Shown: piece by piece, positions 3,343 to 19,471 of the stretch
Layout: the number at the start of each line of letters is the position of its first letter
Position numbering within the stretch: the stretch's first letter is position 1
Assembly: GCA_022564295.1 (NCBI GenBank)
Contig: JADFLR010000031.1
Location: 1 to 47,195 of the forward strand
Source: Bacteroidota bacterium
Lineage (GTDB): Bacteria > Bacteroidota > Ignavibacteria > Ignavibacteriales > Ignavibacteriaceae
Direction of reading: 5' to 3'
Length of the DNA stretch: 47,195 bases
Notes under the pieces: model-generated
Seen by the model: only the letters and a program-made list of their open reading frames with translations
What the model was told of the DNA's origin: nothing
The model's database searches: none
Made by a program: the position numbers and the translations under genes

Positions 3343-4581
3343 TTATTCAATTATAGGTCCAATATCCATCCCCTGGGGATACATAATAAAAGCAATTGCA
3401 AAAGCGATTATTGATATTATTATTCCATACATAAAAAATGTATAACAGTATCTAAGCTGTTTATATTTTTTCCCGAGTACCTGCCCTAAGAAATAAAAAT
3501 CTTCTATCATTGTATCATAAAGATATTCTTTATTATTCATCATTTCTTTCATTCCCCAGCTAAAATCACCCAGATCCATATTATAAAAATTACCGAAGAA
3601 CAGAAGATTTGCTTTTTTATTATGTATATCATCCTTTGTGAATGTACCTGATGTTACTTTCGGTCGGGTAACTAAAATTGCATATATCAGTGCTACTAAA
3701 CTGGTTACTGTTAAGAGTGCAGTTGGAATAATAAGTTGAGGGTTTGTATCTAATTTTCTTACCATAATACTTACTATAATAGTAAGAACCAAAGTATTCA
3801 CAGTGATCATAATGTTTGCTTTATTGTCTGCCATAGAACTGAAGCTAACATGCGTACGCATAATATTGCGGAACATGGTCTCCACTCCCCTGCCGCCTTC
3901 CTTTTCAAGTTTCTTTTTGGTCTCAACTTTCTGTTTGTCTAATTCTAGTTTGGTTTCTCTCAGCCGGGAATCCTTATTTTTTTTCTTCAGCTTTTTTAGT
4001 TGCTTCTCAATCTTGATGAAGTTTATATTTTTTTGTATTCCAAACTTTTCTTTTGCGTAACTTGTATAGAAAGGATGTTGATTTAAAAACTCTAAAGAGA
4101 TTTCCAACCACTCCTGATCTGTACATACTTTATCGTCTCTTTTTTCGCGTTCCAAACGCAAAAGATCGCCCTTTTCTTCAAAACCCTTCAAACCGATATG
4201 GTGAAGATCGGCATCACATAGTATTTCTTCCAAATGATTATTAGGACTTTGAGGCATTTTTGTGATAGCTATTAACGATTCAATTTTCTTAATTTTATCT
4301 TCCGGATAATTAATTGATTGAAGAAATTCTTTAACATATCCTACACTTACATCTTCATGTCCTTCACAAGTTTTAACATAACCCGAATCGTGAAACCATG
4401 CTGCTATTAATAATAATTCCAAATCATCATCACCAACTCCTTCGGCGGCGGCAATCTCTTTAACTGCAGAAACAACTTCTGTGGTATGACTCAGGTTGTG
4501 ATAAACATTTTCGGGTGGGGCATGTTCGTTAAATAATTTTTGAACATATTGATGAGCTTTGTTAATAATCTCTTCATTCAT
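3343..4581 (-). CDS. HD-domain protein fused to Pycsar-type membrane effector (PycTM/DUF5706)
   Basis: A 412-residue protein if the ATG at 4581 is used; an in-frame TTG lies six codons upstream. Residues 1-170 form an HD phosphohydrolase domain with the metal ligands visible: H32 (NLSH), H64-D65 (WFHD) and D123 (CDAD). Residues about 190-228 are a highly charged Lys/Glu coiled coil. The C-terminal part has the SMADNKAN motif (about 249-256) leading straight into transmembrane helices near 256-274, 283-305 and 382-401, the layout of the Pycsar effector family. In Pycsar defence such a protein binds cCMP or cUMP and damages the membrane. Here no nucleotide cyclase is adjacent, so an HD-regulated or self-degrading signalling role is an inference. 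The domain calls are firm; the function is not. Confidence 0.8.
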   Translation of the reverse strand: MNEEIINKAHQYVQKLFNEHAPPENVYHNLSHTTEVVSAVKEIAAAEGVGDDDLELLLIAAWFHDSGYVKTCEGHEDVSVGYVKEFLQSINYPEDKIKKIESLIAITKMPQSPNNHLEEILCDADLHHIGLKGFEEKGDLLRLEREKRDDKVCTDQEWLEISLEFLNQHPFYTSYAKEKFGIQKNINFIKIEKQLKKLKKKNKDSRLRETKLELDKQKVETKKKLEKEGGRGVETMFRNIMRTHVSFSSMADNKANIMITVNTLVLTIIVSIMVRKLDTNPQLIIPTALLTVTSLVALIYAILVTRPKVTSGTFTKDDIHNKKANLLFFGNFYNMDLGDFSWGMKEMMNNKEYLYDTMIEDFYFLGQVLGKKYKQLRYCYTFFMYGIIISIIAFAIAFIMYPQGMDIGPIIE

Positions 4582-4915
4582 TTTTATAATTACACTCAAA
4601 TTGTTTCTTTGAAAGCATTCTAATTATTAATTCAAAATTAAAAATAATACTGTTTAAAAAACAGAATCGCATTAGTATTTTTAGTATTATTCTTCATCAG
4701 TTTTAACTATTTTATTTTAGTATTAATTAAATATATGATTATCTAATTAACAATGCAGTGATTATTATCACATTTTAATACAGGTTTTACGATTTAATCC
4801 TGCGTATTTATATCATTACTTATGTCATTTTCTTTACTTCAAAAATCCCAAAAATTGTAAACCTTTAAATCGAATTTGAAATTATTCATATTATATATAT
4901 CACATTAAAATTATA
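4582..4915. other. Divergent AT-rich intergenic region
   Basis: This 334-base spacer separates the minus-strand HD-PycTM gene from the plus-strand sixA-ppk1 pair, so it should hold promoters for both. It is very AT-rich. I see no RNA gene, coding remnant or strong hairpin, and cannot place a promoter with confidence. Confidence 0.5.
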
Positions 4916-5410
4916 ATGAAAACTTTATATCTCGCAAGGCATGCAAAATCGAGTTGGAAACATCCGGAATTATCAGATATTGAAAGACCATTGAACAAGC
5001 GTGGTAAAAGAGACGCTCCAATTATCGGCAATTTATTAAAAGAGAAAGGTGTGAAACCCGATAAACTAATTTCAAGTCCTGCTGTAAGAGCAAAAAAAAC
5101 TGCTGCAGTTATTGCAGAAATAATAGGTTATCCAAAAAATAAAATTTTAATTGATAAAAATATTTACGAAGCATCATCAACCGAATTGATCAATATCATA
5201 CAAAGTTTTGATGATAAATACAATTCTGTAATGATGTTTGGGCACAATCCCGGCTTTACCTTGGTAAACAATTTTCTTACGGATAGTTTTATAGATAATA
5301 TTCCAACTTGCGGTGTTGTTGGGATTCGCTTTAATTCATCGTGGAAAAAAATAGAAAATACTTCCGGGAAAGCATTCTTTCTTATTTATCCAAAATTATT
5401 TATAAAGTAA
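4916..5410 (+). CDS. sixA: SixA-type phosphohistidine phosphatase
   Basis: A 164-residue histidine phosphatase superfamily member. The catalytic RHA triad is R8-H9-A10, with R58 (SSPAVRAKKT), the likely general acid E85 (IYEAS) and the second catalytic His H110 (FGHNPG). The length matches SixA, which removes phosphate from phosphohistidine on HPt domains or the PTS protein NPr. It is followed after 10 bases by ppk1 on the same strand, so the two are probably co-transcribed. That pairing suggests a role in phosphate or polyphosphate signalling, but the substrate here is unknown. Confidence 0.85.
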   Translation: MKTLYLARHAKSSWKHPELSDIERPLNKRGKRDAPIIGNLLKEKGVKPDKLISSPAVRAKKTAAVIAEIIGYPKNKILIDKNIYEASSTELINIIQSFDDKYNSVMMFGHNPGFTLVNNFLTDSFIDNIPTCGVVGIRFNSSWKKIENTSGKAFFLIYPKLFIK

Positions 5411-5420
5411 AATTATAAAG

Positions 5421-7511
5421 TTGGAAAAGGTAAACCTTAACAAAGATATTTTTTTTAATAGAGAACTAAGCTGGCTTTCCTTCAACTACAGAGTATTGCA
5501 GGAAGCAAAAGATAAAAACGTTCCGCTTCTTGAAAGATTAAAGTTTTTGGCTATTTATTCTTCCAACCTTGATGAATTCTTCCGCGTTCGAGTTGCATCA
5601 TTACGGAGCCTGCTTGCCCTTAAAACAAAGACTCGGAAAAAACTGCAGTTCGATCCTCAAATACTATTGGATGAAATAAAGCAAACAGTAAATAAACAGC
5701 AGGATGAATTCGGCAGGATTTATCGCGAAGAAATTCTCCCTGAATTAAAAAAGAACAACATTTACATTGTTGATGATAAAAACTTTCCTAAATATTCTAA
5801 AAAATATTTGCAATCATATTTCTCTGACAAAGTATTTCCTTTTATTCACACTCTTCTATTGGATAAAGATAAGCATTCAACATTTCTGCAGAATAAAGCA
5901 TTATTCTTTGCTGTATGTTTAATCGAAAAAGATCAATCAGATATAAAAAATAAAAATGTTAATGTTGAATATGAATATGCAATTGTAGAAATACCATCTG
6001 AAAAGCTTGGCAGATTTATTACACTGCCTACGAACAATGATAAAAATTATGTGATGTTTTTAGATGATGTGATAAAATTATTCCTTCCTGATATTTTTCC
6101 TTCTCATAAAATTGATTCCTGTTATTCCATAAAACTTACACGCGATGCTGAGCTTTATATTGATGATGAGTTTACTGGAAATTTACTGGCTAAAATAAAA
6201 AAGGGATTGTCGAAAAGAAAAACGGGTGTACCTTCAAGATTTCTTTACGATAATAAAATGCCAAAGTCCTTCTTAAAATTTTTAAGGGAAACATTAAACC
6301 TTAAAAAAGATGATTTGATTGAAGGCGGAAGATATCACAACTTTAATGATTTTTTCAGCTTCCCGAATTTTAATCTTACCAAATTAGAATATGAACCTCT
6401 GCCGCCAATAGTAAGCAAGGATTTTGATAAACATAATTCAGTCTTCGATGCTATTTCGGAAAAAGATCTTTTGCTTAGTTTTCCATATCAATCTTACGGA
6501 TATGTTTTAAAATTTCTTGAAGAGGCAGCTAACGACCCTGATGTAAAATCAATAAGGATAACTTTATATAGAGTAGCTTCAGAATCGTTGGTAATTCGTT
6601 CTTTATTAAAAGCGGTTGAGAATTCTAAAAAAGTTACGGCTTTTGTTGAACTTAAAGCAAGGTTTGATGAAGAATCTAATTTCTCTTCAGGCGAAGCACT
6701 GCAAAACGGTGGTGTTAATGTGCTGTATAGTTTCCCCGGATTAAAAGTACATTCAAAGCTCTGCGTTGTTGAAAGAGTTGAAAAGGGCAAAACAAATTTC
6801 TATACATATTTAGGTACAGGTAACTTCAACGAAAAAACTGCACGTATTTATTGTGATCATGCACTATTCACTAAGGATAAGCAGATTGCTAAAGATGCAA
6901 ATAATGTTTTTAAGTTTTTATTGAACAAGGATGACGAACAATCGTTCGATAAATTACTTGTTGCGCCGTTTAATTTACGCAGCACTTTTGTGCAATTGAT
7001 TGATAGTGAAATTACAAATTCAAGAGAGGGTAAAAAAGCGGAGATAACTATTAAGCTGAACAGTCTGGAAGACAGAAAAATGATAAAAAAACTTTACGAG
7101 GCATCACAAGCCGGAGTAAAGATAAGAATAATAGCAAGGGGAATTTGTTGTTTGATTCCCGGCAAAAAAGGATTGAGTGAGAATATTTCAGTTATCAGCA
7201 TAGTTGATAGATTCCTTGAACATGCCAGAATTTATGTATTTCATAACAATGGTGAAAAGCTAATGTTCGTTGCGTCCGCTGATTGGATGAGAAGAAATTT
7301 AAGCCGAAGAATAGAGGTGGGATTCCCTATTCTTGATAAAAAAGTAAAAGCACAGTTACTTAAACTGATTGATCTTCAATGGATTGATAATACAAAGGCG
7401 AGAAAAATTGACGCCGCTCAAAAAGATAAATATAAAACTTCAAGGCGTAAAAAGAAGATCAGATCGCAATATGAGATTTATGATTATATTAAGAAAATTA
7501 ATTCAGTATAG
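5421..7511 (+). CDS. ppk1: Polyphosphate kinase 1
   Basis: A 696-residue PPK1 of normal length, which reversibly makes inorganic polyphosphate from ATP. The start is TTG at 5421, giving the conserved N-terminus FFNRELSWLSFNYRVLQEA. Domain order is N (1-105), head (about 110-320), then two phospholipase D-like C domains. The autophosphorylated His is H444 in KVHSKLCVVER and the second catalytic His is H601 in HARIYVFHNNG. It lies 10 bases after sixA. It converges with the next minus-strand gene, leaving only 7 bases between the stops. Confidence 0.95.
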   Translation: MEKVNLNKDIFFNRELSWLSFNYRVLQEAKDKNVPLLERLKFLAIYSSNLDEFFRVRVASLRSLLALKTKTRKKLQFDPQILLDEIKQTVNKQQDEFGRIYREEILPELKKNNIYIVDDKNFPKYSKKYLQSYFSDKVFPFIHTLLLDKDKHSTFLQNKALFFAVCLIEKDQSDIKNKNVNVEYEYAIVEIPSEKLGRFITLPTNNDKNYVMFLDDVIKLFLPDIFPSHKIDSCYSIKLTRDAELYIDDEFTGNLLAKIKKGLSKRKTGVPSRFLYDNKMPKSFLKFLRETLNLKKDDLIEGGRYHNFNDFFSFPNFNLTKLEYEPLPPIVSKDFDKHNSVFDAISEKDLLLSFPYQSYGYVLKFLEEAANDPDVKSIRITLYRVASESLVIRSLLKAVENSKKVTAFVELKARFDEESNFSSGEALQNGGVNVLYSFPGLKVHSKLCVVERVEKGKTNFYTYLGTGNFNEKTARIYCDHALFTKDKQIAKDANNVFKFLLNKDDEQSFDKLLVAPFNLRSTFVQLIDSEITNSREGKKAEITIKLNSLEDRKMIKKLYEASQAGVKIRIIARGICCLIPGKKGLSENISVISIVDRFLEHARIYVFHNNGEKLMFVASADWMRRNLSRRIEVGFPILDKKVKAQLLKLIDLQWIDNTKARKIDAAQKDKYKTSRRKKKIRSQYEIYDYIKKINSV

Positions 7512-7518
7512 ATTACTC

Positions 7519-10149
7519 CTAATATGCCATGGCAAAACCAAAACTGAATGTGAAACGATCAGGCGATACCGCTATATATGTACTTACAACTACAGTCTCC
7601 TCCAAATAAGAGAGCCATAATCCACCTCCGTATGATGGATGCCATTTATCAGAATCCTGTCTATCGCCTTCTACAAAAACTCTACCTGTTTCTGCAAATA
7701 GATTTATACCAAAGTTACTTTTAAAAAGTACTTTCATCTTAGTAAGCCATATTCTTGCTTCTGCCTGCCCGAATACAGAAGCATCACCTGCAAACCTCCA
7801 CCTATTGTACCCTCGTAAATTTTCAATTCCTCCAAGAAATGCTGCCGCATAAAACGGATATTTACCCCACACTTTTTCACCACCGGCACGTAAAGCTAAT
7901 GTAGCTCCATTGAAAATACTAAATGGAAGATAACCCCTAAGATCAATACCGGCTCTGTAAAATGTTTCATCAATATCAAATACTTTTGGAAACACTGCAC
8001 CACGAATATCTGCATAAAAACCACTTGAGGGCACGACTGCATTATCACGTTTATCTATTTCAAAACCTCCGTGCAGACCCAACGGATTAAGCTCTCCGAG
8101 TCCATACGTTCCATAAGTAAAATCATCCAGTAATTCTACGTTATTCATTTTAGTGTTTGTATGAATGAAAGAAAAACCAACTCTGCCTACGAAGTTTTGA
8201 GAAAAGCTAAAGTAAAACATCGGGAAAATTGTAAACAATTCCTGGTCAATCCTGAAAAAATCATTTGCATCAAGTTCATCATCAAAAGATGTTTCGTTGC
8301 CGAACCCAAAATATCTTGTAGCAAACAAAGTGGAATAGATTACTCTTAAATTTAGTCTGCCGTTCCTTACCAGCGAATAAAAATCTCCGCTATAATTGAT
8401 TGTACCGCCTCCAATACTTGAGTAGCTGCCAATTATCTGCTGAACATATTCCACGGGTCTTTCTCTGAAATTATATTTACTGAGTTGAGTTCCTGCACCA
8501 AGAGTAATTCCATTGTCTGTATCAAAACCAAAAACAGGAATTGGAAGCCAACGATGACCACGATCAATAAAGATCGGTTCATATTTTTCTCCATCATCTT
8601 TTGGTTCAGGTTCGGGATGATCATCATAATCAGTACCGGCGCCAGCACTTACAATTGTATTTTCATCACTATCATAAAAATATGTTCTTCTTTGAACAGC
8701 AGTAAAAGGAGTAATCGAAAGAAAATATCCGTGGACTACAGATTCATCAATTAATTCATCTTCGCCTTTTCCGCCAATAATTCTGATAAGAGGACTATAA
8801 TCACATTCCCCTCTAACAACTACTTTATCATTACCATCATTTAGAAATATTCTTATATCAATTGTGATTTCATTATCGAATACTTTATGAAATAATGGTT
8901 TGCCTTTTTTATCACCCGTTTTCTTAGCCTTTTTATAAACAGTTACTTCCGTTGTAAGATCATCCAACCGGTTTACTACAACGTAATCATCTTTGGCACT
9001 GCAATAAACATCTGCAAACTTATTAACCAACCGGTAATATTCATCCGAAGCATTTTGAAGATTATTTCTTCTTGATTTTAATTTTGAAGTTAATTCTTCC
9101 GCATTTATTGGGTAAGCTTCGGAAGGCAGTTCATTAACAGCTCTATCTATAGCATCATCCGTAATTTTGCCCTGAATTACGGTTGCTATAGAATCCCATG
9201 TAGGTTTATCTAGTTCTGCTAGTATTCTGCGATCTAAAAATCGACCATTCCAGGTTAAGTCTTTCAATTGAGGATAATCATAACCGAAATTATTTAATTG
9301 CGGAATCAAGTAAGCGGCTATATAAGGAAAAAAGCCATCATATCTTGAGAATGCCTGATCTCTATCGCGAGGGATGGGATACCAGCCGTCTATTTCATCT
9401 TCATTATACTTTGCCCATCTCCATTGATCCATGTGCCTGTCCCAATCATTGAGAAGAATATCCATTAACCTTGCTTTAAGAAATTCCTTTGCATTAATTT
9501 TTTCACTTCTTTTTTTCTCAAGATAATTTAATAGTTTATAAGTTCCTTTTACATCTATGGCTCCTGCAAATCCCGGTTCATCATCTTCACCCTCATCAGG
9601 ATGCACTTCTATAAATCCGAGCATTCCTCCAAACTCATCTCTAAACTCACCAAGCTTTTCATTATCGGGAAGGTAAACTAATTTGGCTTTAGCTTCTGTT
9701 AGATCAGCCGCTTCTAGTAAGGGAAATACTACCAGAGGGGCTAGAGGATTTGATGTACTGATCTGATCCTTCACAATATCTTCGGCAATCGATTCCTGCA
9801 AATCGAGAGGTAATACTTTTGAAGGATCTTTATTTACTGAACGAAATTTCCAGGACTGACCATCGGCACCAATAAAACGTAAAGACTTTGTCTGATAACC
9901 TCCGCCTTTCTTTAAGGGTGTAAGCCCACCCGCAAAATTATTAAGATTAAGAATTTCAACTTTTAAAGGAGTGGTCCATAAATCCCGCCAATGAGATCCA
10001 AAAAAAACTTCATGCAGCCATCCAGCTTCGTACTCAGCACCTGGTACTATGGTTATGTAATTTACCGTCGTATCAGTTTGAGCAAATGCTAAATGAAACA
10101 TGCTGAACAAAACCATCAACACTATTTTAATAATTGAACTGAGGTTCAT
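7519..10149 (-). CDS. Outer-membrane BamA/ShlB-type barrel with kinase-like periplasmic domain (paralogue 1)
   Basis: An 876-residue exported protein with a signal peptide ending near AFA-Q24. Residues about 85-290 carry motifs arranged as in atypical kinases: SWKFRSVNKDP (K101, possible ATP Lys), LQESIAEDI (E119/E123, possible helix C Glu), LLNDWDRHMDQWRW (D235-H239, catalytic-loop-like) and PIPRDRDQAF (259-267, metal-loop-like). Residues about 540-876 form an outer-membrane barrel of the surface-antigen/BamA class, with FGFGNETSF, DKRDN..PSSGFY, GGIENLRGY and FAETGRVF motifs. I know the architecture from Bacteroidota proteins annotated only by the barrel or an N-terminal phosphoesterase, which is absent here. 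The kinase reading is an inference. A tandem paralogue lies at 10401. Confidence 0.75.
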   Translation of the reverse strand: MNLSSIIKIVLMVLFSMFHLAFAQTDTTVNYITIVPGAEYEAGWLHEVFFGSHWRDLWTTPLKVEILNLNNFAGGLTPLKKGGGYQTKSLRFIGADGQSWKFRSVNKDPSKVLPLDLQESIAEDIVKDQISTSNPLAPLVVFPLLEAADLTEAKAKLVYLPDNEKLGEFRDEFGGMLGFIEVHPDEGEDDEPGFAGAIDVKGTYKLLNYLEKKRSEKINAKEFLKARLMDILLNDWDRHMDQWRWAKYNEDEIDGWYPIPRDRDQAFSRYDGFFPYIAAYLIPQLNNFGYDYPQLKDLTWNGRFLDRRILAELDKPTWDSIATVIQGKITDDAIDRAVNELPSEAYPINAEELTSKLKSRRNNLQNASDEYYRLVNKFADVYCSAKDDYVVVNRLDDLTTEVTVYKKAKKTGDKKGKPLFHKVFDNEITIDIRIFLNDGNDKVVVRGECDYSPLIRIIGGKGEDELIDESVVHGYFLSITPFTAVQRRTYFYDSDENTIVSAGAGTDYDDHPEPEPKDDGEKYEPIFIDRGHRWLPIPVFGFDTDNGITLGAGTQLSKYNFRERPVEYVQQIIGSYSSIGGGTINYSGDFYSLVRNGRLNLRVIYSTLFATRYFGFGNETSFDDELDANDFFRIDQELFTIFPMFYFSFSQNFVGRVGFSFIHTNTKMNNVELLDDFTYGTYGLGELNPLGLHGGFEIDKRDNAVVPSSGFYADIRGAVFPKVFDIDETFYRAGIDLRGYLPFSIFNGATLALRAGGEKVWGKYPFYAAAFLGGIENLRGYNRWRFAGDASVFGQAEARIWLTKMKVLFKSNFGINLFAETGRVFVEGDRQDSDKWHPSYGGGLWLSYLEETVVVSTYIAVSPDRFTFSFGFAMAY

Positions 10150-10177
10150 CTGTTATAATTTTAAATTTTTGTCAGAT

Positions 10178-10209
10178 GGAACTCGTTCCGATTTATCGGG
10201 ACTAGTTTC
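10178..10209. repeat. Near-perfect palindrome between barrel paralogues
   Basis: GGAACTCGTTCCGAT and ATCGGGACTAGTTTC are complementary apart from G-T wobbles, around a two-base TT centre. It is followed by no T tract on either strand and lies over 190 bases from the upstream stop codon, so it is not an ordinary terminator. It may be a dispersed palindromic repeat or a leader hairpin of the downstream minus-strand gene. Confidence 0.5.
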
Positions 10210-10400
10210 ATAATTATTACAATTAAATAGTTTTGGTAATAACAAACATTACATAGTGATTAATATAATGAATTCTTCAGTAAGGAAGAATCTTATTATA
10301 CTATCAATATAATAAATTTAGAGTTGAGAACGTTAACTTAAAAGGATTTATTCTGAATGACTTTTCCTTTGTGGAATCTGAATGGAAAATTAATGTTCAT

Positions 10401-13028
10401 TTACAATCCCATTCTCGCTCTTAGATAAAAAGTAGTTCTTTCGGTCGATTTACCAATAGTAATGGAAGTGTTCAGCGTCCTTCCTATTATAGATAGCCAA
10501 ACACCCCCACCAAAAGCAGGATGCCACTTTGTAGAATTTTCCCCATCAACAAAAACTCTTCCTGTCTCACCAAAAAAGTGTATGCCGAATTCTCCAGGTA
10601 AATATATACTGAATTTGGATACTAGTAAACGTAACTCAGCTTGTGTAGATAAGGAGGCGTCTCCTGAGAATCTTTCCCTCGAATATCCACGTAGATTATT
10701 TTTACCGCCACGGAAAGCTGCAAACTGAAACGGATATTTTGAACCCCAAACTCCTTCTCCGCTTGTTCGCAACGACAAAGTATAATTCGTTAAAATTCTT
10801 CCGCTGAAATAACCCCTTAGTTCAAATCCTCCCCTTGAAAAGAACTCTTCATTATCTAACATAGCAGGATATAATGAGCCATAGAATGAAACTAAAAACC
10901 CATTTTTCGCATTCCTGATAACGTCACGACTGTCTATCGAAAAAGCAGTATTAATTTTAAATATTTTTAAGTGACCTAATCCATACCCGGGATTATGAAA
11001 GTCTTTCAAAAGTATTTCATTCTTCATGCTTGTATTATACACGTTGTATGAAAAAGCAAACCTTATTGTGTTATACTTAAAGAAATGAAAATCTACTGAA
11101 GGTTCAATATAAAACAGATTCTGTTTCACTTCGTTAAAACCGTTATCCTCCAGTTCTTCACTATAAGGAGTTTCATTACCAAATCCATAATATTTTACCA
11201 GGTGTAATTGAGTGAAGCTCACTTCAATATTACTTTCTGCTCCTCTTATCCACGATTTTGATATCAACTTATAAAACAAATTAGCACTGTTAAGTTTTAT
11301 TGAATACGCCGCAGTAAACGTCATCCAATATTCATACGGATCCATTAAAAAATCATATACAAGCAAGGTTGGTCCGCCGCCGATAGTTATTCCATCATCA
11401 GAGCTAAGATTAAACACGGGGTTAACCTCAATTTCGTGAAATCTGTTTTTAAAATGGGGTTCATATTTATCTATATCATCTATAGGTTCAGGAATTATAC
11501 TCTTATTAATAACTGTTCCCGGTCCGGTTTTGAAAACAGATTTATTTCCGCTGTCGTAAAAAACAGCAGCATGTTCTGTATTAGGAATTGGTAAGAAGCT
11601 AAAAAGATTACCGTTTACTTTTGAGTTATCAACAAATTCATCTTTTCCATTACCGCCGATAATTCTTATTATTGGGCTTGTCTCAACTACACCATTTACA
11701 ACTGCTTTATCATCTCCATCCATTAAAAATATTCTTACTTCTGCGGTAAGTTTATTATCGAATATTTTATGATAAATAGGGGCGTCTTTTTTCTTACCGT
11801 TTTTTTTAGCTCTTCGATAATAAGAAACTTCCGTTTCATCGTTGCTCAATCTTATAACTTCAACAAAATCATCTTTATCGCTGCAATAAATATCTACAAC
11901 ATCATTAATGAGATTGTAATAATCCTCAGAGAAAGTAAAGAGTTGATCACGACGGGATCTTAATTTAAATAATAACTCAGCACCAACAATCTTTTTAATT
12001 TCAGGTGGAAGTACATTAACTGCATCTTCAATAACCTCGTCTGTTAATCTGTTCTGTACAAATGCAGTAACTGAATCCCATTGTTCTTTAGTTAGTTCAG
12101 AAAGATAACGGCGATCGAGCATCCTGCCGCTCCACGTTAAGTTTCGAGCATTAGGAAAATCAGCAGCAAAATGATTTAGTTGCAATACAAACATTTCACC
12201 AAGAGAAGGAAACACACCATCATATTTTGGGAATGCCTGGTCACGGTCACGCGGAATGGGTCGCCACAACTCTTTACCCTTCACATCATACCTTGCCCAG
12301 CGCCACTGATCCGTGTGTCTATCCCAATCACCAATATAATTATCCATCAAACGTGCTTTAAGAAATTCTTTTGAGTCTACTCTTTCGCTTCTTTTCTTTT
12401 CAAGCCGGTGGAAAAGTTTATAAGTGCCGACTATTTTTTCAGCCCCCTCAAAACCCGGCTTGCCTTCTTTGCCTTCATCGGGATGAATTTCAATCATTCC
12501 TAACATTCCTCCAAATTCTTCCCTGAATTTACCAAGCATTTCATCATCTGGGAGCACAACCAATTGCGGTTCTGCTTGAAGAACATCGACAGCATTTAAT
12601 AGAGGTGCTACTACCAATGCACCTAAAGGATTAGCGGAACTTATCTGGTCTGTTAGAACATCTGCAATTAATGATTCCTGTAAATCCGACTCTAATACTT
12701 TTGTAGGATCTTTATTGATTGAACGGAATTTATAGATGTTTCCATCCTTACCGTTAAATCGAAGCGATTTTGTTTGCAACCCACCTCCAACTTTTGTAGG
12801 TGTTATTCCCCCGGCAAAATTTTTCAGATCAAGAACCGGAACTTGCATAGGAGTTGTCCATATATCTCTCCAATGCTTTCCAAACCAGAAATTGTGGAAC
12901 CAACCAGCATCAAACTGTTTACCTGGAACTACTGTAACAAAATTAGTAGAATCGCTTTGTGAATAAGTGAACTGTAAAATACCTAATGTAAGTACAAGAA
13001 TTATTTTGATAATTGAGAGAGGTTTCAA
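10401..13028 (-). CDS. Outer-membrane barrel with kinase-like periplasmic domain (paralogue 2)
   Basis: This 875-residue paralogue of the 7519-10149 product is collinear over its whole length. The start is TTG at 13028, fixed by the signal peptide that begins immediately (IIKIILVLTLG, cleavage near TYS-Q24). The same motif set is conserved: IYKFRSINKDP (K100), LQESLIADV, GDWDRHTDQWRW (D234-H238) and PIPRDRDQAF (258-266), then the C-terminal barrel with FGFGNETPY, RGGKNNLRGYSRERF and FGETGRVFV. Conservation of the Asp/Arg/His residues while loops diverge suggests they are functional. The 250-base gap and no clear terminator allow co-transcription or separate promoters. Tandem duplication is the simplest origin. 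Confidence 0.75.
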   Translation of the reverse strand: MKPLSIIKIILVLTLGILQFTYSQSDSTNFVTVVPGKQFDAGWFHNFWFGKHWRDIWTTPMQVPVLDLKNFAGGITPTKVGGGLQTKSLRFNGKDGNIYKFRSINKDPTKVLESDLQESLIADVLTDQISSANPLGALVVAPLLNAVDVLQAEPQLVVLPDDEMLGKFREEFGGMLGMIEIHPDEGKEGKPGFEGAEKIVGTYKLFHRLEKKRSERVDSKEFLKARLMDNYIGDWDRHTDQWRWARYDVKGKELWRPIPRDRDQAFPKYDGVFPSLGEMFVLQLNHFAADFPNARNLTWSGRMLDRRYLSELTKEQWDSVTAFVQNRLTDEVIEDAVNVLPPEIKKIVGAELLFKLRSRRDQLFTFSEDYYNLINDVVDIYCSDKDDFVEVIRLSNDETEVSYYRRAKKNGKKKDAPIYHKIFDNKLTAEVRIFLMDGDDKAVVNGVVETSPIIRIIGGNGKDEFVDNSKVNGNLFSFLPIPNTEHAAVFYDSGNKSVFKTGPGTVINKSIIPEPIDDIDKYEPHFKNRFHEIEVNPVFNLSSDDGITIGGGPTLLVYDFLMDPYEYWMTFTAAYSIKLNSANLFYKLISKSWIRGAESNIEVSFTQLHLVKYYGFGNETPYSEELEDNGFNEVKQNLFYIEPSVDFHFFKYNTIRFAFSYNVYNTSMKNEILLKDFHNPGYGLGHLKIFKINTAFSIDSRDVIRNAKNGFLVSFYGSLYPAMLDNEEFFSRGGFELRGYFSGRILTNYTLSLRTSGEGVWGSKYPFQFAAFRGGKNNLRGYSRERFSGDASLSTQAELRLLVSKFSIYLPGEFGIHFFGETGRVFVDGENSTKWHPAFGGGVWLSIIGRTLNTSITIGKSTERTTFYLRARMGL

Positions 13029-13198
13029 CTTTGTTTTATATAATTATTATTAAAGGAAATAATATATAAAACTTTTTTAAAAAATAACCCTACTATTTTA
13101 CTTTAATTTCTCAAGATCATCACTACTGTTTACAATACTCAAAATCATTTTATAATATTTTATAAATCATTTATACACCTATACACATCAAGAAGAAA

Positions 13199-15058
13199 TC
13201 AAAATGGAAGTGTAACGCCCCCGGTAAAAATGAGTCCATCCTGTCCAATAGCAGCATTGCCAATTATTCCAAGGTTTGGAGGGTTAAGTATTCTTATGCT
13301 CATTCCAGGATTAACATTAAATCTTCCGGTAAAACCATCATTGTTAAAAACCTGTCCGGCATCTAAAAACGGTGCCATTTGAACATCCATCGGCATTCCT
13401 AAAAATACAATGTGCATCATTTGAAAACGAACTTCCATACTTGCAAACACAGAGTGCTGTCCATAAAACCTTCCGATATCAAATGCTCTGTCAGAAAAAT
13501 CACCGCCAAAAGTTGCCTGGTCAAAAAACGGTACATTCCGGTCAGTTGTAAATGTCCAGCTATTTCTTAAAAGTAAAGTTAATATCTGATCTCTAGTGGA
13601 AAAATATTGTCTTAGGTCGATAGAAAATTTACCATAATTTGAAACAATGTCAGAAGTTGGCACAACCTGTTCATCAACACTATTGTACTCCGCAACAAAT
13701 TTTCCGTAGAAACCGGCAGAAGGTGTAAACTCTGAATTCCTGCTGTCAAACACAAGATTAACTCTACCACCATAAACAGTTGCGCCATGAATTCCAGGAA
13801 CTTTAGCAAATTTTTCACCCGGGGATGTAAATTCTGTTGTCCATGGCATTATATCGTGTATCTTGTCATTACCATCTGAAACATCAACGTTTCGAACCTT
13901 TCCACCAACACCAAATCTCCAGTGGTTAACAGGCATCCAATAGAAGTCGAGTATACCGCCAAATTCCTGGTGGGTATAATTAGTTTTATCTTCCTCTACT
14001 GTTTCTGAACCGATGCCATAAAATCTAAAACGAGGATCCTGAAACGCATCTGCTATTAATTCATAACCAAATCTGTGTTTTTTTCCTAAAGTAAGATTTT
14101 CAACATGAGCGCGTATTCCTGCATTTTGCCCATCGGTTGATACTTGTGCAGATACCCAGTAATTAAAATACGCAGCCGGACAACTCACAGCTTCAACTGC
14201 AATTGTTGGACCTATAAACTCGTTATAAAATGCGCGAAGCTGAACCTGACCTGTCATGATGCCCTCACGTGTAACATCTAATAGAGAAACACCTAATCCA
14301 AGAGTAGCTCCGTTGTTTTCTGTAAACCCAACAAAAGGGACCCAAACGGTTTGAATATGTTTTCCATGATTATCAGGATCTATGAACAACCAATGCAGGA
14401 AGTCAGGGATTGCTGTTCCTTCGGGCCACCTGTACATAATGCTGCTCCATGGTTCAGGCAACAGATCTTCCTCATCAATAACCAGATAATCTTTTGGTAC
14501 TTCGCTTATATATGGTTCGGGAATTTCACTCTGTGTGATCTCTCCTTTTGAACTTATTGTAATTGTAGTTGTATATTTTTCGTGAACGTGTGATGAAAGA
14601 TGACCTGCATTTAATCCCGGTGTATAAGTTGCGTAAGCAGTTATTGTGTATTCACCCTCAGGAATGGAAGCATCAGTAATGAAAGGTATGATTACATGAA
14701 CCTTGCCTTCAAAAATCCGTGTTTTACCTTTATGAACAGGTACACCTCTTTCTTTTGGATTCGGAAAAAGTGCATCCCCAAATTCAAAATCTTCAATTGA
14801 TTTCATCGTAATATAAGTGGGCGGCGGAATTGTTGCAGAGGGATCATTATCACCAAGCCAAAATCCACGCGGAACTTTAAATACCATTTCCAGGGCGGAT
14901 TGCTGTCCAGGGATTACTGTTGTATTTAACGGTTTGATTGAAATATCAATTGGGTTTTCAACTGTTTGTGAAACTATTGCCGTAGTAAATAAAAGAATTA
15001 TTAACGAGATTATTAAGTGCAGTGAAATGCCTGAAAAAATGTTGATTGTTCTGTACAT
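13199..15058 (-). CDS. Outer-membrane barrel with DsbD-N-like front domain
   Basis: A 619-residue exported protein. AAGGAG lies seven bases before the ATG, and the signal sequence (IISLIILLFTTAIVSQ) spans residues 15-31. Residues about 35-170 resemble the immunoglobulin-like N-terminal domain of DsbD (VIPGQQSALEMVFKVPRGFW, then IPEGEYTITAYATYTPG), but without the Cys pair needed for electron transfer. Residues about 235-619 are a surface-antigen/BamA-type barrel with VPFVGFTENNGATLG, FYGIGSETVEEDKTNY, DSRNSEFTPSAGFY and PFLDAGQVF. It resembles the barrel of the two neighbours but lacks the kinase-like part. The role is unknown: an envelope assembly or secretion pore, or a lone barrel with a binding domain. 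Confidence 0.7.
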   Translation of the reverse strand: MYRTINIFSGISLHLIISLIILLFTTAIVSQTVENPIDISIKPLNTTVIPGQQSALEMVFKVPRGFWLGDNDPSATIPPPTYITMKSIEDFEFGDALFPNPKERGVPVHKGKTRIFEGKVHVIIPFITDASIPEGEYTITAYATYTPGLNAGHLSSHVHEKYTTTITISSKGEITQSEIPEPYISEVPKDYLVIDEEDLLPEPWSSIMYRWPEGTAIPDFLHWLFIDPDNHGKHIQTVWVPFVGFTENNGATLGLGVSLLDVTREGIMTGQVQLRAFYNEFIGPTIAVEAVSCPAAYFNYWVSAQVSTDGQNAGIRAHVENLTLGKKHRFGYELIADAFQDPRFRFYGIGSETVEEDKTNYTHQEFGGILDFYWMPVNHWRFGVGGKVRNVDVSDGNDKIHDIMPWTTEFTSPGEKFAKVPGIHGATVYGGRVNLVFDSRNSEFTPSAGFYGKFVAEYNSVDEQVVPTSDIVSNYGKFSIDLRQYFSTRDQILTLLLRNSWTFTTDRNVPFFDQATFGGDFSDRAFDIGRFYGQHSVFASMEVRFQMMHIVFLGMPMDVQMAPFLDAGQVFNNDGFTGRFNVNPGMSIRILNPPNLGIIGNAAIGQDGLIFTGGVTLPF

Positions 15059-15176
15059 ATTATTTCTCCTTACAAAATCGATGCATCGCTATTTACAAAA
15101 TATTATAAATCACTATTTGGAGTCATGATTTTGAAAAATCACATTTTCAGTATATGAATGTTTGGGAAAGAAATAT

Positions 15177-15194
15177 GTCGTCAATGAGACAACA
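15177..15194. repeat. Direct repeat, copy 1 (partner 16612-16629)
   Basis: GTCGTCAATGAGACAACA matches 16612-16629 at 17 of 18 bases. Both copies lie just beyond the 3' end of an SdiA-regulated-type frame, intact at 16640 and decayed at 15214. The repeat is therefore part of a larger diverged duplication rather than a stand-alone element. Confidence 0.75.
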
Positions 15195-15213
15195 GACGAG
15201 AGACCTATTTAGA

Positions 15214-15324
15214 TTAATTCCGAACGGGAATGATGGTTAACTTTGCATTTTTATGATTAGCCTAATCCGAAATTAAAAGTTATAAATTAGGTAAAAAAGT
15301 GATACCTTCCGGCTGGCGATGATT
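15214..15324 (-). pseudogene. Remnant of an SdiA-regulated-type gene (C-terminal end)
   Basis: The minus frame from 15324 reads NHRQPEGITFLPNL, stop, LLISD, stop, ANHKNAKLTIIPVRN, stop. The intact gene at 16640-17503 ends NHRQPEGIAFLSDLSLLISD followed by EGKEGKAKVTFITL. The homology is obvious and collinear, with two internal nonsense codons. Only the last 37 or so codons survive. At its upstream end the sequence changes abruptly into a porin fragment. Confidence 0.8.
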
Positions 15325-15360
15325 TTCCTTTATCAATTTCCTGTTTATTACTTGAACCGT
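15319..15360 (-). pseudogene. Porin gene fragment fused to the SdiA-type remnant
   Basis: These 42 bases match 22845-22886 inside the porin gene with a single mismatch. On the minus strand they read GSSNKQEIDKGKS, the same residues and frame as the porin. They join the SdiA-type remnant across shared bases (TGATTTT on the plus strand), a microhomology junction. The fragment is too short to be functional. Confidence 0.8.
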
Positions 15361-15366
15361 ATTACA

Positions 15367-15768
15367 TTATTTAATTTCCACAAGACAGTAATTATGTTGA
15401 TTCTCATCATCATAAGGATGAAGAAAAAAGTTCCTTAAATCTGCATTAAGATTATCATTAACACAGACTTTTCCACCTCTATAATGTGATTGATCTCTAT
15501 TCACATTGTAAGTTTGAAATGATGAAGCATCTGTTAACATCACTCCGAATTTTATTTCACCTTTTTCGATATTTCTATCCAATGGCGATAATGATATTTT
15601 CCCGTTCGAATCGACTACTTTAGCGATACCGTCAGCAGTAACGATTATTGTATTTTTACTATCGTCCTCTACACTTCCAGCATAAGCAGTTTGTAAAGCA
15701 ACTAACGTAAATAGCACTGAAATTAATAATTTCCATAAGATCCGGTTGATTTTATTTATTGTAATCAT
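15367..15768 (-). CDS. Small secreted protein of unknown function
   Basis: A 133-residue protein. AAGGAGAATAGAG precedes the ATG. A signal peptide covers residues 1-31 with a likely cleavage after AYA. The mature part of about 100 residues is hydrophilic and has two cysteines near the C-terminus (KVCVNDN and HNYCLVEIK), which could form a disulfide in the periplasm. I recognise no family. Its stop codon lies seven bases from the composite pseudogene scar, so it may once have been part of the same transcript. Confidence 0.65.
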   Translation of the reverse strand: MITINKINRILWKLLISVLFTLVALQTAYAGSVEDDSKNTIIVTADGIAKVVDSNGKISLSPLDRNIEKGEIKFGVMLTDASSFQTYNVNRDQSHYRGGKVCVNDNLNADLRNFFLHPYDDENQHNYCLVEIK

Positions 15769-16014
15769 CTCTATTCTCCTTAAGAGTAGTTATCATTTAG
15801 TTAGTTATCGTATCAAATATTATGTTATATATTTCCCTCATTAGATAATATTAAACGCAAAGAATCACATTTTTCCATTCACTTAAAATGTATCTTGTAT
15901 TATAATCTATTGTTCAGTATATGATCTGGTTTAACAAACATTTGAATATCTACAAATTTTTTATCAGTCGTACCAATAAATAGCAAGCTGTGTAATATTA
16001 TTTATTGGAATATT

Positions 16015-16377
16015 CTAGCAACACTCCTGCAGTCTTTCTTCAAACCAATTTCTATCTACTAAATTCATTGATGCCGTACTTTTCAGCCAATTTATTTTTT
16101 CGTTGCTCAAATTCTTATTTGCTCCGGCAAGATTTATTGCATCTATCAAAAAATGTTTTGCAAGATTTGCTGAATCAAACATGATTGGTTCGTTATCTAT
16201 GTAATCATTTCTCATAAATGTATTTAATATTGTTTCATAAAAATCGGGGGCATATCCAAGATGTTTTGCTGTATTAATAATAATTGTCCTGTCCATCTCT
16301 GAAATAACCTCATCCATTTTTACCATAATTAATAATCCCCTCAAATATTTACCTCGATCCTCTACTGGAATCTGCAT
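16015..16377 (-). CDS. TerB-like all-helical protein, hypothetical
   Basis: A 120-residue protein if the ATG at 16377 is used, which has GGAGAGG at a suitable distance; an earlier ATG six codons upstream overlaps that site. It has no signal peptide or membrane segment. The segment LIMVKMDEVISEMDRTIIINTAKHLGYAP resembles the acidic helix pairs of TerB-fold proteins (DGxISxxE pattern), and the rest is helical. TerB-fold proteins are linked to stress and metal sensing, but assignment here is only by pattern. The final residues are a Cys-Cys pair. Confidence 0.6.
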   Translation of the reverse strand: MQIPVEDRGKYLRGLLIMVKMDEVISEMDRTIIINTAKHLGYAPDFYETILNTFMRNDYIDNEPIMFDSANLAKHFLIDAINLAGANKNLSNEKINWLKSTASMNLVDRNWFEERLQECC

Positions 16378-16611
16378 CTTTACCTCTCCGATCAATTGAT
16401 AAAAAGATTTAATTACAGTAACGATTTAACTCTATTTTCTAACTCCTTTCTTAAAATAACACCTGCTACCTTTGGTAACAGTTTATTTAAAAGCTTCCTC
16501 CTGATTGATCAAATAATTGTGGACAAGCTTTTAGTAGTTCAGTTTTGTGCTATCGCATTATTTTAATAATTTATTACTGACCAACTATAGATATTTGTAA
16601 CTCAGAAATGT

Positions 16612-16629
16612 GTCGTCAATAAGACAACA
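16612..16629. repeat. Direct repeat, copy 2 (partner 15177-15194)
   Basis: GTCGTCAATAAGACAACA, one base different from copy 1, lies just past the stop of the intact SdiA-regulated-type gene. It marks the downstream edge of the duplicated segment. Confidence 0.75.
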
Positions 16630-16639
16630 AAGAGGAGAA

Positions 16640-17503
16640 TTAATGGCGGTTACTATTTAAAGTGATGAAGGTCACTTTCGCTTTTCCCTCTTTACCCTCA
16701 TCAGATATGAGTAAGGACAAATCTGAAAGAAAAGCTATTCCTTCCGGCTGACGATGATTTTTTGATTTCAGCTTAACAGCGTTTAGTAACTCACCATCAG
16801 ATGATAATTCAACAATCATTTTCTCATGTGATGATAGAATATAAATATTAGCACTGTTAGGATGAACTTCAATTCCTGTTGGAGAAAAGTTATTGATATT
16901 GAATTTATTTTTTAGAGAATCAAGATTTATTAAAAACCTTGGTTCTTCATTTAGAATATACGTAGATAGATCAAATGCATAAATTGCTTTGTATTCTGTT
17001 AAGTTTTTTCCTGCATAATCTTTACAAGCAAGTAAAAGAGAATTTGTCGCTTTATCATAACATAACCCTTCAACATTAAATTTTGCGGAAAGAAAGGTTT
17101 TGACTTTTATGTATTCAACATTTCGTTCATCATCTGGATAATTAAATTTATACAAAACACCTGAACTCGTAACTAAAAAGAGTGAATCGTTAACTGCAGC
17201 AATTCCTTCAAAATCTTTCTTTAATTTTTTCTTACCCAAATAAAATTGATACAGGATTTTACCGGTTTTAATATCAACTTCATAAACAGTTCCTATTTCA
17301 TCATTATGTGCAAATAACCTGTTATCCCCGGTGATTGCTAATCCAGATATTTCATTTAATTGTTTTGGGAGAGTTATTGTTCTCGAATGCTCTTCTGAAA
17401 AATTATAGTTAGGTAATGTCCCTTCATTTAGAGCATTTTGTTGTGCTATTGTAAAGCATAAGAAAACGAGAGATGAGGAAACAAATTTTGAAATACTATT
17501 CAA
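16640..17503 (-). CDS. Exported SdiA-regulated-domain protein (beta-propeller)
   Basis: A 287-residue protein with a TTG start at 17503, fixed by the signal sequence (SSSLVFLCFTIAQQ). The body shows repeated propeller blades: EISGLAITGDNRLFAHNDE, FEGIAAVNDSLFLVTSSG, VEGLCYDKATNSLLLACKD, PTGIEVHPNSANIYILSS and PEGIAFLSDLSLLISDE. This is the SdiA-regulated/esterase-like propeller pattern, seen in secreted or outer-membrane-associated proteins of unclear activity. It lies 30 bases downstream of the cyclase gene on the same strand and is probably co-transcribed. A decayed paralogue of its 3' end lies at 15214-15324. Confidence 0.8.
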   Translation of the reverse strand: MNSISKFVSSSLVFLCFTIAQQNALNEGTLPNYNFSEEHSRTITLPKQLNEISGLAITGDNRLFAHNDEIGTVYEVDIKTGKILYQFYLGKKKLKKDFEGIAAVNDSLFLVTSSGVLYKFNYPDDERNVEYIKVKTFLSAKFNVEGLCYDKATNSLLLACKDYAGKNLTEYKAIYAFDLSTYILNEEPRFLINLDSLKNKFNINNFSPTGIEVHPNSANIYILSSHEKMIVELSSDGELLNAVKLKSKNHRQPEGIAFLSDLSLLISDEGKEGKAKVTFITLNSNRH

Positions 17504-17533: not shown

Positions 17534-19471
17534 TTAAGCATTAGGTAAATTCATACGTTTTAATAAATCAATATAACGCGGATCGTTTTGAATTTCTTTC
17601 CAGTGTGGGTGTGCTATAAATATCAAACTGCCAAGTTTTTCCTCATACGCTATATCAAGCCTCTCGAATGCTTTATCAAGATCATTTAATCCTATATAAA
17701 GAACAGCGAAATCCATATGAAGTGATATATCTTTCTCCTCAGTTTCTCTTATTATTAACTTATTCAAGCATTCCTTTGCTTCTTCAATTTTTCCCATACG
17801 TGCATAAATGTAACCCAAAGATGATGTCCCTTTAAATTCACTTCCAATCAGCTTTTGTACTTTCAGGAATATATCGAGGGCTTTTTCAGTATCGCCCATT
17901 CTATAATAAACCCATCCCAATCCGTTTAGTGCTTCACGGAAATTAGGATCAAGTTCCAATGTTTTTTGGTATTGCTCCTGTGCCTGACCAAGTAGATTTG
18001 CCGAAGCATAAGCTCCGGCAAGAGCAGAATTAACTGGTATAGACAGCGGATCTAAATCGAGTGCAGTCTCTGCTTCTTTAATTGCTTTTTTATAATCACC
18101 CATAGCAATTAGATACATTGTGTAATACTGGTGAGCATCTGCGGAATTTGGATTTAGCTCTAAAGCTTTAAAAAATCTTTTTTGGGCAGCATCCCAATCC
18201 CATTCATAAAAGAAGTGTACCATTGCTAATGAAATATGACATTCTGCAAGTGTATCGTCTAATTCAAGCGCTTTTAATGCATTCTCTTTGGCTTTAGGGT
18301 AAGCGATTTTTGTTGGCATCTGACCGATAGCTCCAAGATATACATAACCGGATGAGAGTCCTGAATAAGGTAAAGCAAATTGGGGATCCAGTTCAATGGC
18401 TCTCTCCGAAAATTCAATAGATCTGCGAACATCAGCCGGAGTCCACTTGCTCCAACAAAATTTAGCTTTTAGATGAAGATTATAAGCTTCTAAATTTTCA
18501 GTTGGTGCTTTTATAGTGTGGTGAGAAGCTTTTGGAAAACTTAATGTTTTCTTTAACTGTTTTGCTATTGAAGAAGCAATTTCATCCTGGACGGCGAAAA
18601 TATCTTCTAAATTTCTATCGTAAACATCAGACCACTTATGATATCCATCCTCTACACTAATTAACTGTGCGGTTATACGAACTTTATTCCCATGCTTTCT
18701 CACACTTCCTTCCAACACATTCTTAACGCCAAGTTGCTTCCCAATCTCTCTGATATCTTCATTTTTTCCTTTAAACGCGAAAGCTGAGGTTCTTGATGTG
18801 ACCATCAACCCATCTACTTTAGCCAATGTGTTTAGTATTTCTTCTGTTATCCCATCACTAAAATATTCGTTCTCCTTATCCGCACTAATATTAACAAAAG
18901 GTAAAACGGCTATAGAATGCTCCGCAGTGTTAATTTTTCCAGCTACTTGATCAGGAGTTGGTACAGTTATCCCATGAGAACTTACGGAATAAACACGTAA
19001 AGGATAGCGAACATTTTTCAGCTTAAAAGTTCCAAGCTCCGATGTGGAAACATCTGTTTGATTTTTTAATTCTTCATTTACTTTATCTGAGACAAGAACG
19101 CTGCCGGGAAGAGCAAGATTTTCAATCCGTGATGCAACATTGACACCATCGCCATATATTCCTTCATCATCATAAACAATATCACCTGCATGAATTCCAA
19201 TTCTTAGCGGTACTTTTGGATCCCTCTGTAATTCTTGCTGGATTCTTGCACCGCAGATTGTTGCTTCAATTGCACTACCAAAAATTGCCAACGTCCCGTC
19301 ACCATAGTATTGCAAAATTTGTCCGTTATGCTCTAAAATAAGATTTTGCAGAACCTCCCGATGCCGGTCTCTTAATGCTTTTGCTTTCCTTTCATCTTCC
19401 TGCATCATTATAGTATAGCCCACCATATCAGTAAACATGATGGCAGCAAGCATTCTAATTTCTTTTTTCAT
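17534..19471 (-). CDS. Class III nucleotide cyclase with TolB-like and TPR regions
   Basis: A 645-residue protein without a signal peptide. Residues 1-170 form a class III cyclase domain: FTDMVG with metal D15, YYGDG with metal D58, and NVASR with N111 and R115. The position that is Lys in adenylyl cyclases (KTIGD) is Gln54 (QYYGD), and the partner Asp before VN is absent (GIYGDGVN), so substrate choice is not predictable. Residues about 186-305 match the TolB-like N-terminal domain (SIAVLPFVNIS..FSDGITEEIL..LLEGSVRK-type). Residues about 330-640 are tandem TPRs. This architecture is common in Bacteroidota and usually has no known product. It precedes the propeller gene. Confidence 0.88.
   Translation of the reverse strand: MKKEIRMLAAIMFTDMVGYTIMMQEDERKAKALRDRHREVLQNLILEHNGQILQYYGDGTLAIFGSAIEATICGARIQQELQRDPKVPLRIGIHAGDIVYDDEGIYGDGVNVASRIENLALPGSVLVSDKVNEELKNQTDVSTSELGTFKLKNVRYPLRVYSVSSHGITVPTPDQVAGKINTAEHSIAVLPFVNISADKENEYFSDGITEEILNTLAKVDGLMVTSRTSAFAFKGKNEDIREIGKQLGVKNVLEGSVRKHGNKVRITAQLISVEDGYHKWSDVYDRNLEDIFAVQDEIASSIAKQLKKTLSFPKASHHTIKAPTENLEAYNLHLKAKFCWSKWTPADVRRSIEFSERAIELDPQFALPYSGLSSGYVYLGAIGQMPTKIAYPKAKENALKALELDDTLAECHISLAMVHFFYEWDWDAAQKRFFKALELNPNSADAHQYYTMYLIAMGDYKKAIKEAETALDLDPLSIPVNSALAGAYASANLLGQAQEQYQKTLELDPNFREALNGLGWVYYRMGDTEKALDIFLKVQKLIGSEFKGTSSLGYIYARMGKIEEAKECLNKLIIRETEEKDISLHMDFAVLYIGLNDLDKAFERLDIAYEEKLGSLIFIAHPHWKEIQNDPRYIDLLKRMNLPNA

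Follow-up and report, generated by a model that had tools for sequence, protein, structure and literature searches.

What does a kinase-like domain do at the head of an outer-membrane barrel? The question is raised by two tandem genes, here called P1 and P2, on contig JADFLR010000031.1 of a genome from the Ignavibacteriaceae (assembly GCA_022564295.1); the window analysed is a stretch of 47,195 nucleotides of that contig, taken whole. From the sequence alone, both products had been read as BamA/ShlB-type barrels carrying a FAM20/CotH/HipA-type kinase-like domain. Our data indicate that the N-terminal domain has, by structural modeling, the fold of an atypical (PI4KII/CotH/CtkA-like) kinase, that it is joined to an Omp85 barrel, and that it recurs with a phosphoesterase and with polyphosphate genes. 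We consider it probable (roughly 0.6) that these proteins act as phosphotransferases tethered to the outer membrane, with a phosphatase as partner, in envelope phosphate or polyphosphate metabolism. The two genes and their parts lie as follows, with residues numbered as in P1 unless P2 is stated.

7519..10149, minus strand: P1, 876 residues, ATG start; predicted kinase-fold domain, beta domain and Omp85 barrel
9016..10059, minus strand: P1 predicted kinase-fold domain, residues 31-378 (AlphaFold2 model, structure matches)
9892..9906, minus strand: P1 glycine-rich loop GGGYQ, residues 82-86, between N-lobe strands one and two (conservation, strand order in the model)
9823..9849, minus strand: P1 KFRSVNKDP, residues 101-109, third N-lobe strand (conservation)
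9415..9447, minus strand: P1 putative catalytic loop DWDRHMDQWRW, residues 235-245 (conservation)
9349..9378, minus strand: P1 PIPRDRDQAF, residues 258-267, putative DFG-equivalent metal site (conservation)
8560..9015, minus strand: P1 beta domain and linker, residues 379-530, between the kinase-fold domain and the barrel (strands in the models)
7522..8559, minus strand: P1 Omp85 barrel, residues 531-876, without POTRA domains (PF01103, model, BamA match)
10401..13028, minus strand: P2, tandem paralogue of P1, 875 residues, TTG start, same architecture by sequence
12297..12329, minus strand: P2 putative catalytic loop DWDRHTDQWRW, P2 residues 234-244
12231..12260, minus strand: P2 PIPRDRDQAF, P2 residues 257-266

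Both open reading frames (ORFs) carry KFRS[V/I]NKDP, DWDRHxDQWRW and PIPRDRDQAF in the same order ahead of the barrel, just as the sequence-only reading had described. The two N-terminal domains are 55% identical, both N termini resemble signal peptides by eye, and a genome search found no third copy of the family. The only Pfam family above cut-off is PF01103, the Omp85 barrel at the C terminus (5.3e-12 and 1e-5 for P1 and P2), and NCBIfam returns barrel families only, all under their cut-offs; the first ~530 residues match no family in either scan.

The AlphaFold2 model of P1 residues 26-530, made with 81 sequences, has a mean predicted local distance difference test score (pLDDT) of 93.1 and a predicted template modeling score (pTM) of 0.93. 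Its elements follow the order of a two-lobed kinase: a strand, a glycine-rich turn (82-86), a second strand, the strand bearing R103, the D128 helix, a hinge strand and a long helix, then the DWDRH loop (from 235), two strands, RDRD (261-264) and helices. The DWDRH loop is modeled between the long helix and the strand pair, with RDRD straight after the pair. Kinases have their catalytic loop and DFG motif in this order, and a DRH loop followed by a metal Asp had been anticipated. The best Foldseek matches in the PDB are CtkA (1.9e-5), PI4KIIalpha (2.4e-5), PI3K (6.9e-5), CotH (1.1e-4) and Fam20C (2.5e-4). In VIA the top three are tied, namely PI4KIIalpha (Z 15.1, root-mean-square deviation (rmsd) 4.3 Å, 256 residues aligned), CotH (14.5, 4.2 Å, 251) and CtkA (14.2, 4.4 Å, 239), with HipA (11.6) and FAM20C (11.1) lower; going by their titles, all 50 listed entries are kinases once the HipA structures named 'MDT protein' or 'persistence regulator' are included. 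Run over 177,635 PDB sequences, a profile search ranked CtkA highest and lined up the two DRH loops, though without significance (E 0.096 and 0.18). A kinase fold, as opposed to any other, had been set beforehand as the test of the idea, and the model and its matches to atypical kinases come down on the side of the kinase.

Conservation was counted over 81 sequences, comprising 79 of 80 genome-contig loci and both window domains (L097 was too short). No variation is seen at R103, K107, R227, D230, D235, D262, D264, D306 or R360, while H239 and W245 are kept in 80 sequences each, R263 in 79 and D128 in 78; in the glycine-rich loop, G82 is found in 78, G83 in 80 and Q86 in 79, and position 242 is Gln in 64 and Asn in 17. 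Invariance across 81 homologues places the motifs far beyond chance, and the conservation expected of D235, H239, D262 and D264 is borne out. A catalytic loop with Asp/His and a metal-binding Asn/Gln, followed by a DFG-like Asp, is accordingly present (D235, H239, Q/N242, D262/D264). The sequence-only reading had further proposed K101 (a 'Lys strand') and E119 (a 'Glu helix') as a conserved Lys/Glu pair; we reject this pair, as both residues are common to the two paralogues but vary in the family (17/81 and 20/81), and the candidates for the third-strand basic residue and the C-helix acid are instead the invariant R103 and K107, and D128. In the passages of PMC12189002 drawn on here, CotH retains counterparts of PKA D166, N171 and D184. 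A weak profile alignment with CotH suggests that these map to D237 (or D235), Q/N242 and D262. Judged by sequence, the catalytic and metal acids appear intact in both P1 and P2, with either D235 or D237 as the acting Asp of DWD.

The likeness to known kinases lies in the fold. CotH (PF08757; 5jd9, 5jda) has WD and PxDxD motifs that line up with DWDRH and PIPRDRD in the same weak alignment, but the hhalign probability is 6% (score 27.9, against 12.8-20.8 for eight unrelated controls; 0.7% for a single CotH), and PF08757 matches neither P1, P2 nor any of 26 members, nor anything in the genome of the window. CtkA, similarly, has an LGNFDRHNGNW segment that aligns with GDWDRHxDQW, but its profile E-value is 0.096; HipA reaches an hhalign probability of 3%, and its family PF07804 is below cut-off in all 26 members, one of them at E 0.22, and has no match in the own genome. 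Membership of CotH or HipA by sequence is therefore rejected, there being no Pfam match and hhalign probabilities of 6% and 3%; the proposed FAM20/CotH/HipA-type likeness survives as a likeness of fold (Z 11.1, 14.5 and 11.6). To our knowledge, no outer-membrane barrel accompanies CotH, and we know of no CtkA/HipA-type kinase anchored in the outer membrane. PI4KII/PI3K-like lipid kinases and FAM20C have a catalytic loop of the D-R-H/D-R-G type. P1 shares their fold (Z 15.1 for PI4KII, 11.1 for FAM20C); they differ in being eukaryotic and lacking a detectable sequence-family match, and the resemblance does not imply a lipid substrate.

The C-terminal part is a barrel of the Omp85 superfamily. 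The AlphaFold2 model of P1 residues 376-876 (pLDDT 92.8, pTM 0.85) has 16 long strands by count, superposes on BamA with Z 25.2 (rmsd 4.2, 320 aligned) and carries the LRGY motif at the usual Omp85 place, in agreement with the PF01103 match. No POTRA family was found in the Pfam and NCBIfam scans of P1 and P2, and the N-terminal part is modeled as a kinase fold and a beta domain. P1 and P2 are thus not BamA, TamA or ShlB proper, lacking POTRA domains before the barrel, and the BamA/ShlB-type label of the earlier reading holds for the barrel (Z 25.2).

The nearest group described so far is the 'Metallo' Omp85 subfamily (Heinz and Lithgow 2014; PMC4104836), which combines a PF00149 domain with an Omp85 barrel without POTRA domains. 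The authors take the PF00149 domain for a metalloprotease, and the word kinase is absent from their main text. Members of our family with a fused phosphoesterase, e.g. L063, have the same layout of PF00149 and POTRA-less barrel and very probably belong to this subfamily. They differ from it in a kinase-fold domain between the phosphoesterase and the barrel, which, like the phosphoesterase-free form, does not appear in the passages of PMC4104836 drawn on here; P1 and P2 themselves lack the PF00149 domain that is present in relatives. A search of the open-licence PMC literature, by title and start of abstract, found no description of a kinase-fold/Omp85 protein. We regard the family as new among kinase folds, and its setting as new too.

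Its parts occur in several combinations. Of the 80 members, 35 have an N-terminal extension of more than 300 residues; ten extensions were scanned for PF00149 (calcineurin-like phosphoesterase), of which five matched above cut-off, three below it and two not at all. Among unfused loci, 8 of 43 have a phosphoesterase of this type within four genes; the one in L058 belongs to a second, fused copy (L058 and L094 lack their 5' end and are scored as unfused). In L172 (9051-13097), the three modules are spread over adjacent genes, one for a kinase-fold protein resembling a lipoprotein, one for a phosphoesterase (PF00149, 2.3e-8) and one for a POTRA-less Omp85 barrel of 395 residues (7.7e-13). Copies without a barrel occur in L168-L171 and L173, where the hidden Markov model (HMM) of the family barrel detects none, fused or in other ORFs of the 20-kilobase (kb) stretch; by eye, their N termini resemble a membrane anchor in L168-L170, a lipobox in two of three in L171 and a plain signal peptide in L173. 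These barrel-less copies keep DWDRH in 7/8 and DRD in 8/8, the exception being L171:10439 with DWSRR. In L171 (7126-12151), three barrel-less kinase-fold genes are neighbors, the third being the one with DWSRR, and the same genome has two phosphoesterase-fused copies near two genes for polyphosphate kinase 1 (PPK1; L174, L175).

The domain is widespread. It was found in 24 of 59 near-relative genomes, a count that takes in the own genome and, through an end fragment alone, G004. An even sample of the phylum, again with the own genome, has it in 52 of 148 genomes; in a scan of genome contigs, at least 585 of 593 candidate stretches were confirmed. Going by record titles, the best 80 of these include Ignavibacteria, Bacteroidota (Pedobacter, Hymenobacter, Pontibacter, Dyadobacter and Zobellia among them), Gemmatimonadota, Calditrichota, KSB1, Latescibacterota, Poribacteria and Acidobacteriota. 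Some DNA entered from two collections (L177 = L035; L033 = L005/L030; L034 = L014), so these loci are not independent. Two further sets were drawn up: A2, with 26 of 29 sequences (L008, L031 and L032 omitted), and A4, with P1 and 62 of the 80 loci (omitting seven that end at a contig edge, three of odd length and eight near-duplicates).

The neighborhood gives the family a link to polyphosphate. The relevant genes around P1 and P2 are these:

5421..7511, plus strand: PPK1, convergent with P1, 7 bases between the two gene ends (TIGR03705, 783.8 bits)
4916..5410, plus strand: SixA-like histidine phosphatase (PF00300, 1.5e-9)
3343..4599, minus strand: HD and PycTM protein, a recurrent neighbor of the family (PF18967, 5.2e-34; PF01966, 9.2e-6)
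13199..15058, minus strand: third Omp85-barrel gene, 619 residues, upstream of P2 on the same strand, without the kinase-fold domain (PF01103, 3.8e-12)
16640..17503, minus strand: SdiA-regulated/phytase-like protein, a recurrent neighbor of the family (PF06977, 3.8e-13)

Neighbors were counted in 78 of the 80 loci, many of which have truncated flanks. The most frequent are SdiA-regulated/phytase-like genes (31), HD-PycTM (23), PPK1 (22), SixA (16) and DUF4956 (13), followed by PAP2 phosphatases (9), Ppx/GppA (6) and, within four genes, CotH (3). Again going by record titles, the PPK1 neighbors are spread over Bacteroidota (9), Ignavibacteria (8), Gemmatimonadota (4) and KSB1 (1), a share that is biased in that the 78 loci are the best-matching relatives. 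In the even sample, where linkage counts are lower bounds among the matches listed, PPK1 lies within 20 kb in at least 15 of the 52 genomes that bear the family. As a control, HipA, with 98 listed matches entered and at least three fragment rows omitted, has PPK1 within 20 kb in 0/65 genomes and within 30 kb in 2/65, among the matches listed. The own genome has two PPK1 genes, the second on contig C5.

How might such a protein work? P1 and P2 would be exported, and the POTRA-less barrel would tether the kinase-fold domain to the outer membrane, most likely facing the periplasm, a placement deduced from the general topology of Omp85 proteins. A phosphate donor and metal would be bound through D262/D264 and Q242, and D235 or D237, together with H239 in the DWDRH loop, would support transfer to an acceptor in the envelope. 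The calcineurin-like phosphoesterase, fused or next door in many relatives, may carry out the reverse reaction or process the donor or product. The donor is the main puzzle, because ATP is not expected in the periplasm, and polyphosphate is an attractive candidate. On its boldest form, the kinase-phosphatase module on an Omp85 barrel would phosphorylate envelope molecules with exported polyphosphate in place of ATP, a nucleotide-free outer-membrane phosphorylation system; this we regard as a long shot. The new envelope phosphorylation system named in the sequence-only reading is likewise something that we infer.

Several points weigh against a phosphotransferase tied to phosphate metabolism. 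The Foldseek superpositions are loose, with template modeling scores by query of 0.17-0.33 and rmsd of 5.5-18.5 Å (28 rows, E <=0.001), and neither sequence nor profile comparison gave a significant match to CotH, HipA or any Pfam family, CtkA being the best PDB profile match with E-values of 0.096 and 0.18. ATP, as noted, is not expected in the periplasm. A phosphoesterase of the partner type was not found in the own genome, by a search without a positive control, its sensitivity being unproven. D237, which matches the usual position of the catalytic Asp, is Asp in 66 of the 81 sequences, Ser in 8 and Gly in 7. PPK1 lies within 10 kb in at least 3 of the 52 even-sample genomes, with a fourth, G166, at ~6 kb, and is present in 136 of the 148 genomes, the kinase-fold family in only 52. 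Of the 15 linked genomes of that sample, 12 belong to a single family, with PPK1 at 11.0-14.2 kb.

The D237 variants bring in a first alternative, that the domain performs other chemistry (AMP transfer, glutamylation or phosphate-ester hydrolysis) or acts as a pseudokinase that binds a ligand, sensing nucleotides or polyphosphate; kinase-fold proteins with switched chemistry, such as SelO and SidJ, and the lack of an expected donor nucleotide outside the cytoplasm speak for it. All 15 variants are among the 35 fused members, and none of 44 unfused relatives varies. They form one clade (L060, L073, L074, L076, L084, L085, L087, L088, L091, L100, L103, L104, L105, L109 and L110; 15/15 tips, support 0.999), and in 15/15 of them, as in L024, the fused phosphoesterase has lost metal-ligand motifs (GDxG becomes GNxx or a gap, and GNHD becomes GDxD/E). 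Fused members with D237 keep all five motifs checked in 17/20, the others being L066 and L099, and L106 in part. The loss of D237 and of the phosphoesterase ligands means that at least this clade may be non-catalytic; the joint change of both active sites in one clade suggests one joint function, although its confinement to that clade makes it a single event and so counts against the pairing that we favor. Against a switched or lost activity, R103, K107, D235, D262 and D264 are invariant and H239 is kept in 80/81 even with the D237 variants included, DRD persists in all the barrel-less copies and DWDRH in all but one, and P1 and P2 have the full set. We consider this alternative unlikely.

The uneven linkage raises another, that the polyphosphate neighborhood reflects coincidence or vertical inheritance and that the domain serves an unrelated envelope process. 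The concentration in one family fits this, as do the 37 of 52 genomes without PPK1 within 20 kb among the matches listed (36 once G166 is counted). However, PPK1 linkage turns up repeatedly and with differing gene orders, in Ignavibacteria, Gemmatimonadota, KSB1 and Bacteroidota, and G123 has two family genes on two contigs, each with a PPK1 of its own; mere coincidence or descent is thus rather improbable. We hold it equally doubtful that the family is part of an enzyme complex that scavenges phosphorus from organic phosphate outside the cell, with shared phosphate regulation as its only tie to polyphosphate: the SdiA-regulated/phytase-like (31/78) and PAP2 (9/78) neighbors and a Porin_O_P gene in L177 point that way, but a kinase fold would be an odd tool for scavenging, and Pfam names are no proof of activity. 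Finally, the barrel itself might do the work, as an insertase or translocator of the Omp85 type whose clients the kinase-fold domain modifies or gates, as the retained Omp85 fold and LRGY motif and the third Omp85 gene adjoining P2 would allow, but the lack of any POTRA family in the Pfam and NCBIfam scans and the domains of L168-L171 and L173, for which the family HMM detects no barrel in the 20-kb stretch, make this a poor prospect.

Should an outer-membrane phosphotransferase be confirmed, envelope phosphorylation in Gram-negative bacteria would open as a topic, with an outer-membrane kinase-fold enzyme and its phosphatase partner. The family would also offer a testable gene set for phosphate and polyphosphate handling outside the cytoplasm in Bacteroidota, Ignavibacteria and Gemmatimonadota. 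Moreover, it revises the domain layout of a large protein group for which Pfam reports an Omp85 barrel, in some cases a metallophosphoesterase as well, and nothing else.

Some smaller features of these loci deserve mention. A scan of 7000-16700 for promoters and terminators gave no excess over shuffled sequence (35 promoter-like sites where shuffles averaged 40.1, and 6 terminator-like sites where the shuffled value was 6.0). The N-terminal region of the third Omp85 gene has only a weak DsbD_N match (E 0.14), and just upstream of the SdiA-regulated gene, at 17534-19471, lies a gene for a 645-residue protein with an adenylate/guanylate cyclase domain and TPR repeats. The 'Pycsar effector' domain of Pfam, carried by the HD-PycTM protein, neighbors the family in 23 of 78 loci, and so it may serve some purpose other than phage defence here. 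In L177 the Porin_O_P gene, just above its cut-off (21.8 against 20.9 bits), is accompanied by a CotH gene, and in L053, L054, L057 and L064 the family gene is directly followed downstream by a DUF4956 membrane-protein gene and then by an SdiA-regulated/phytase-like gene.

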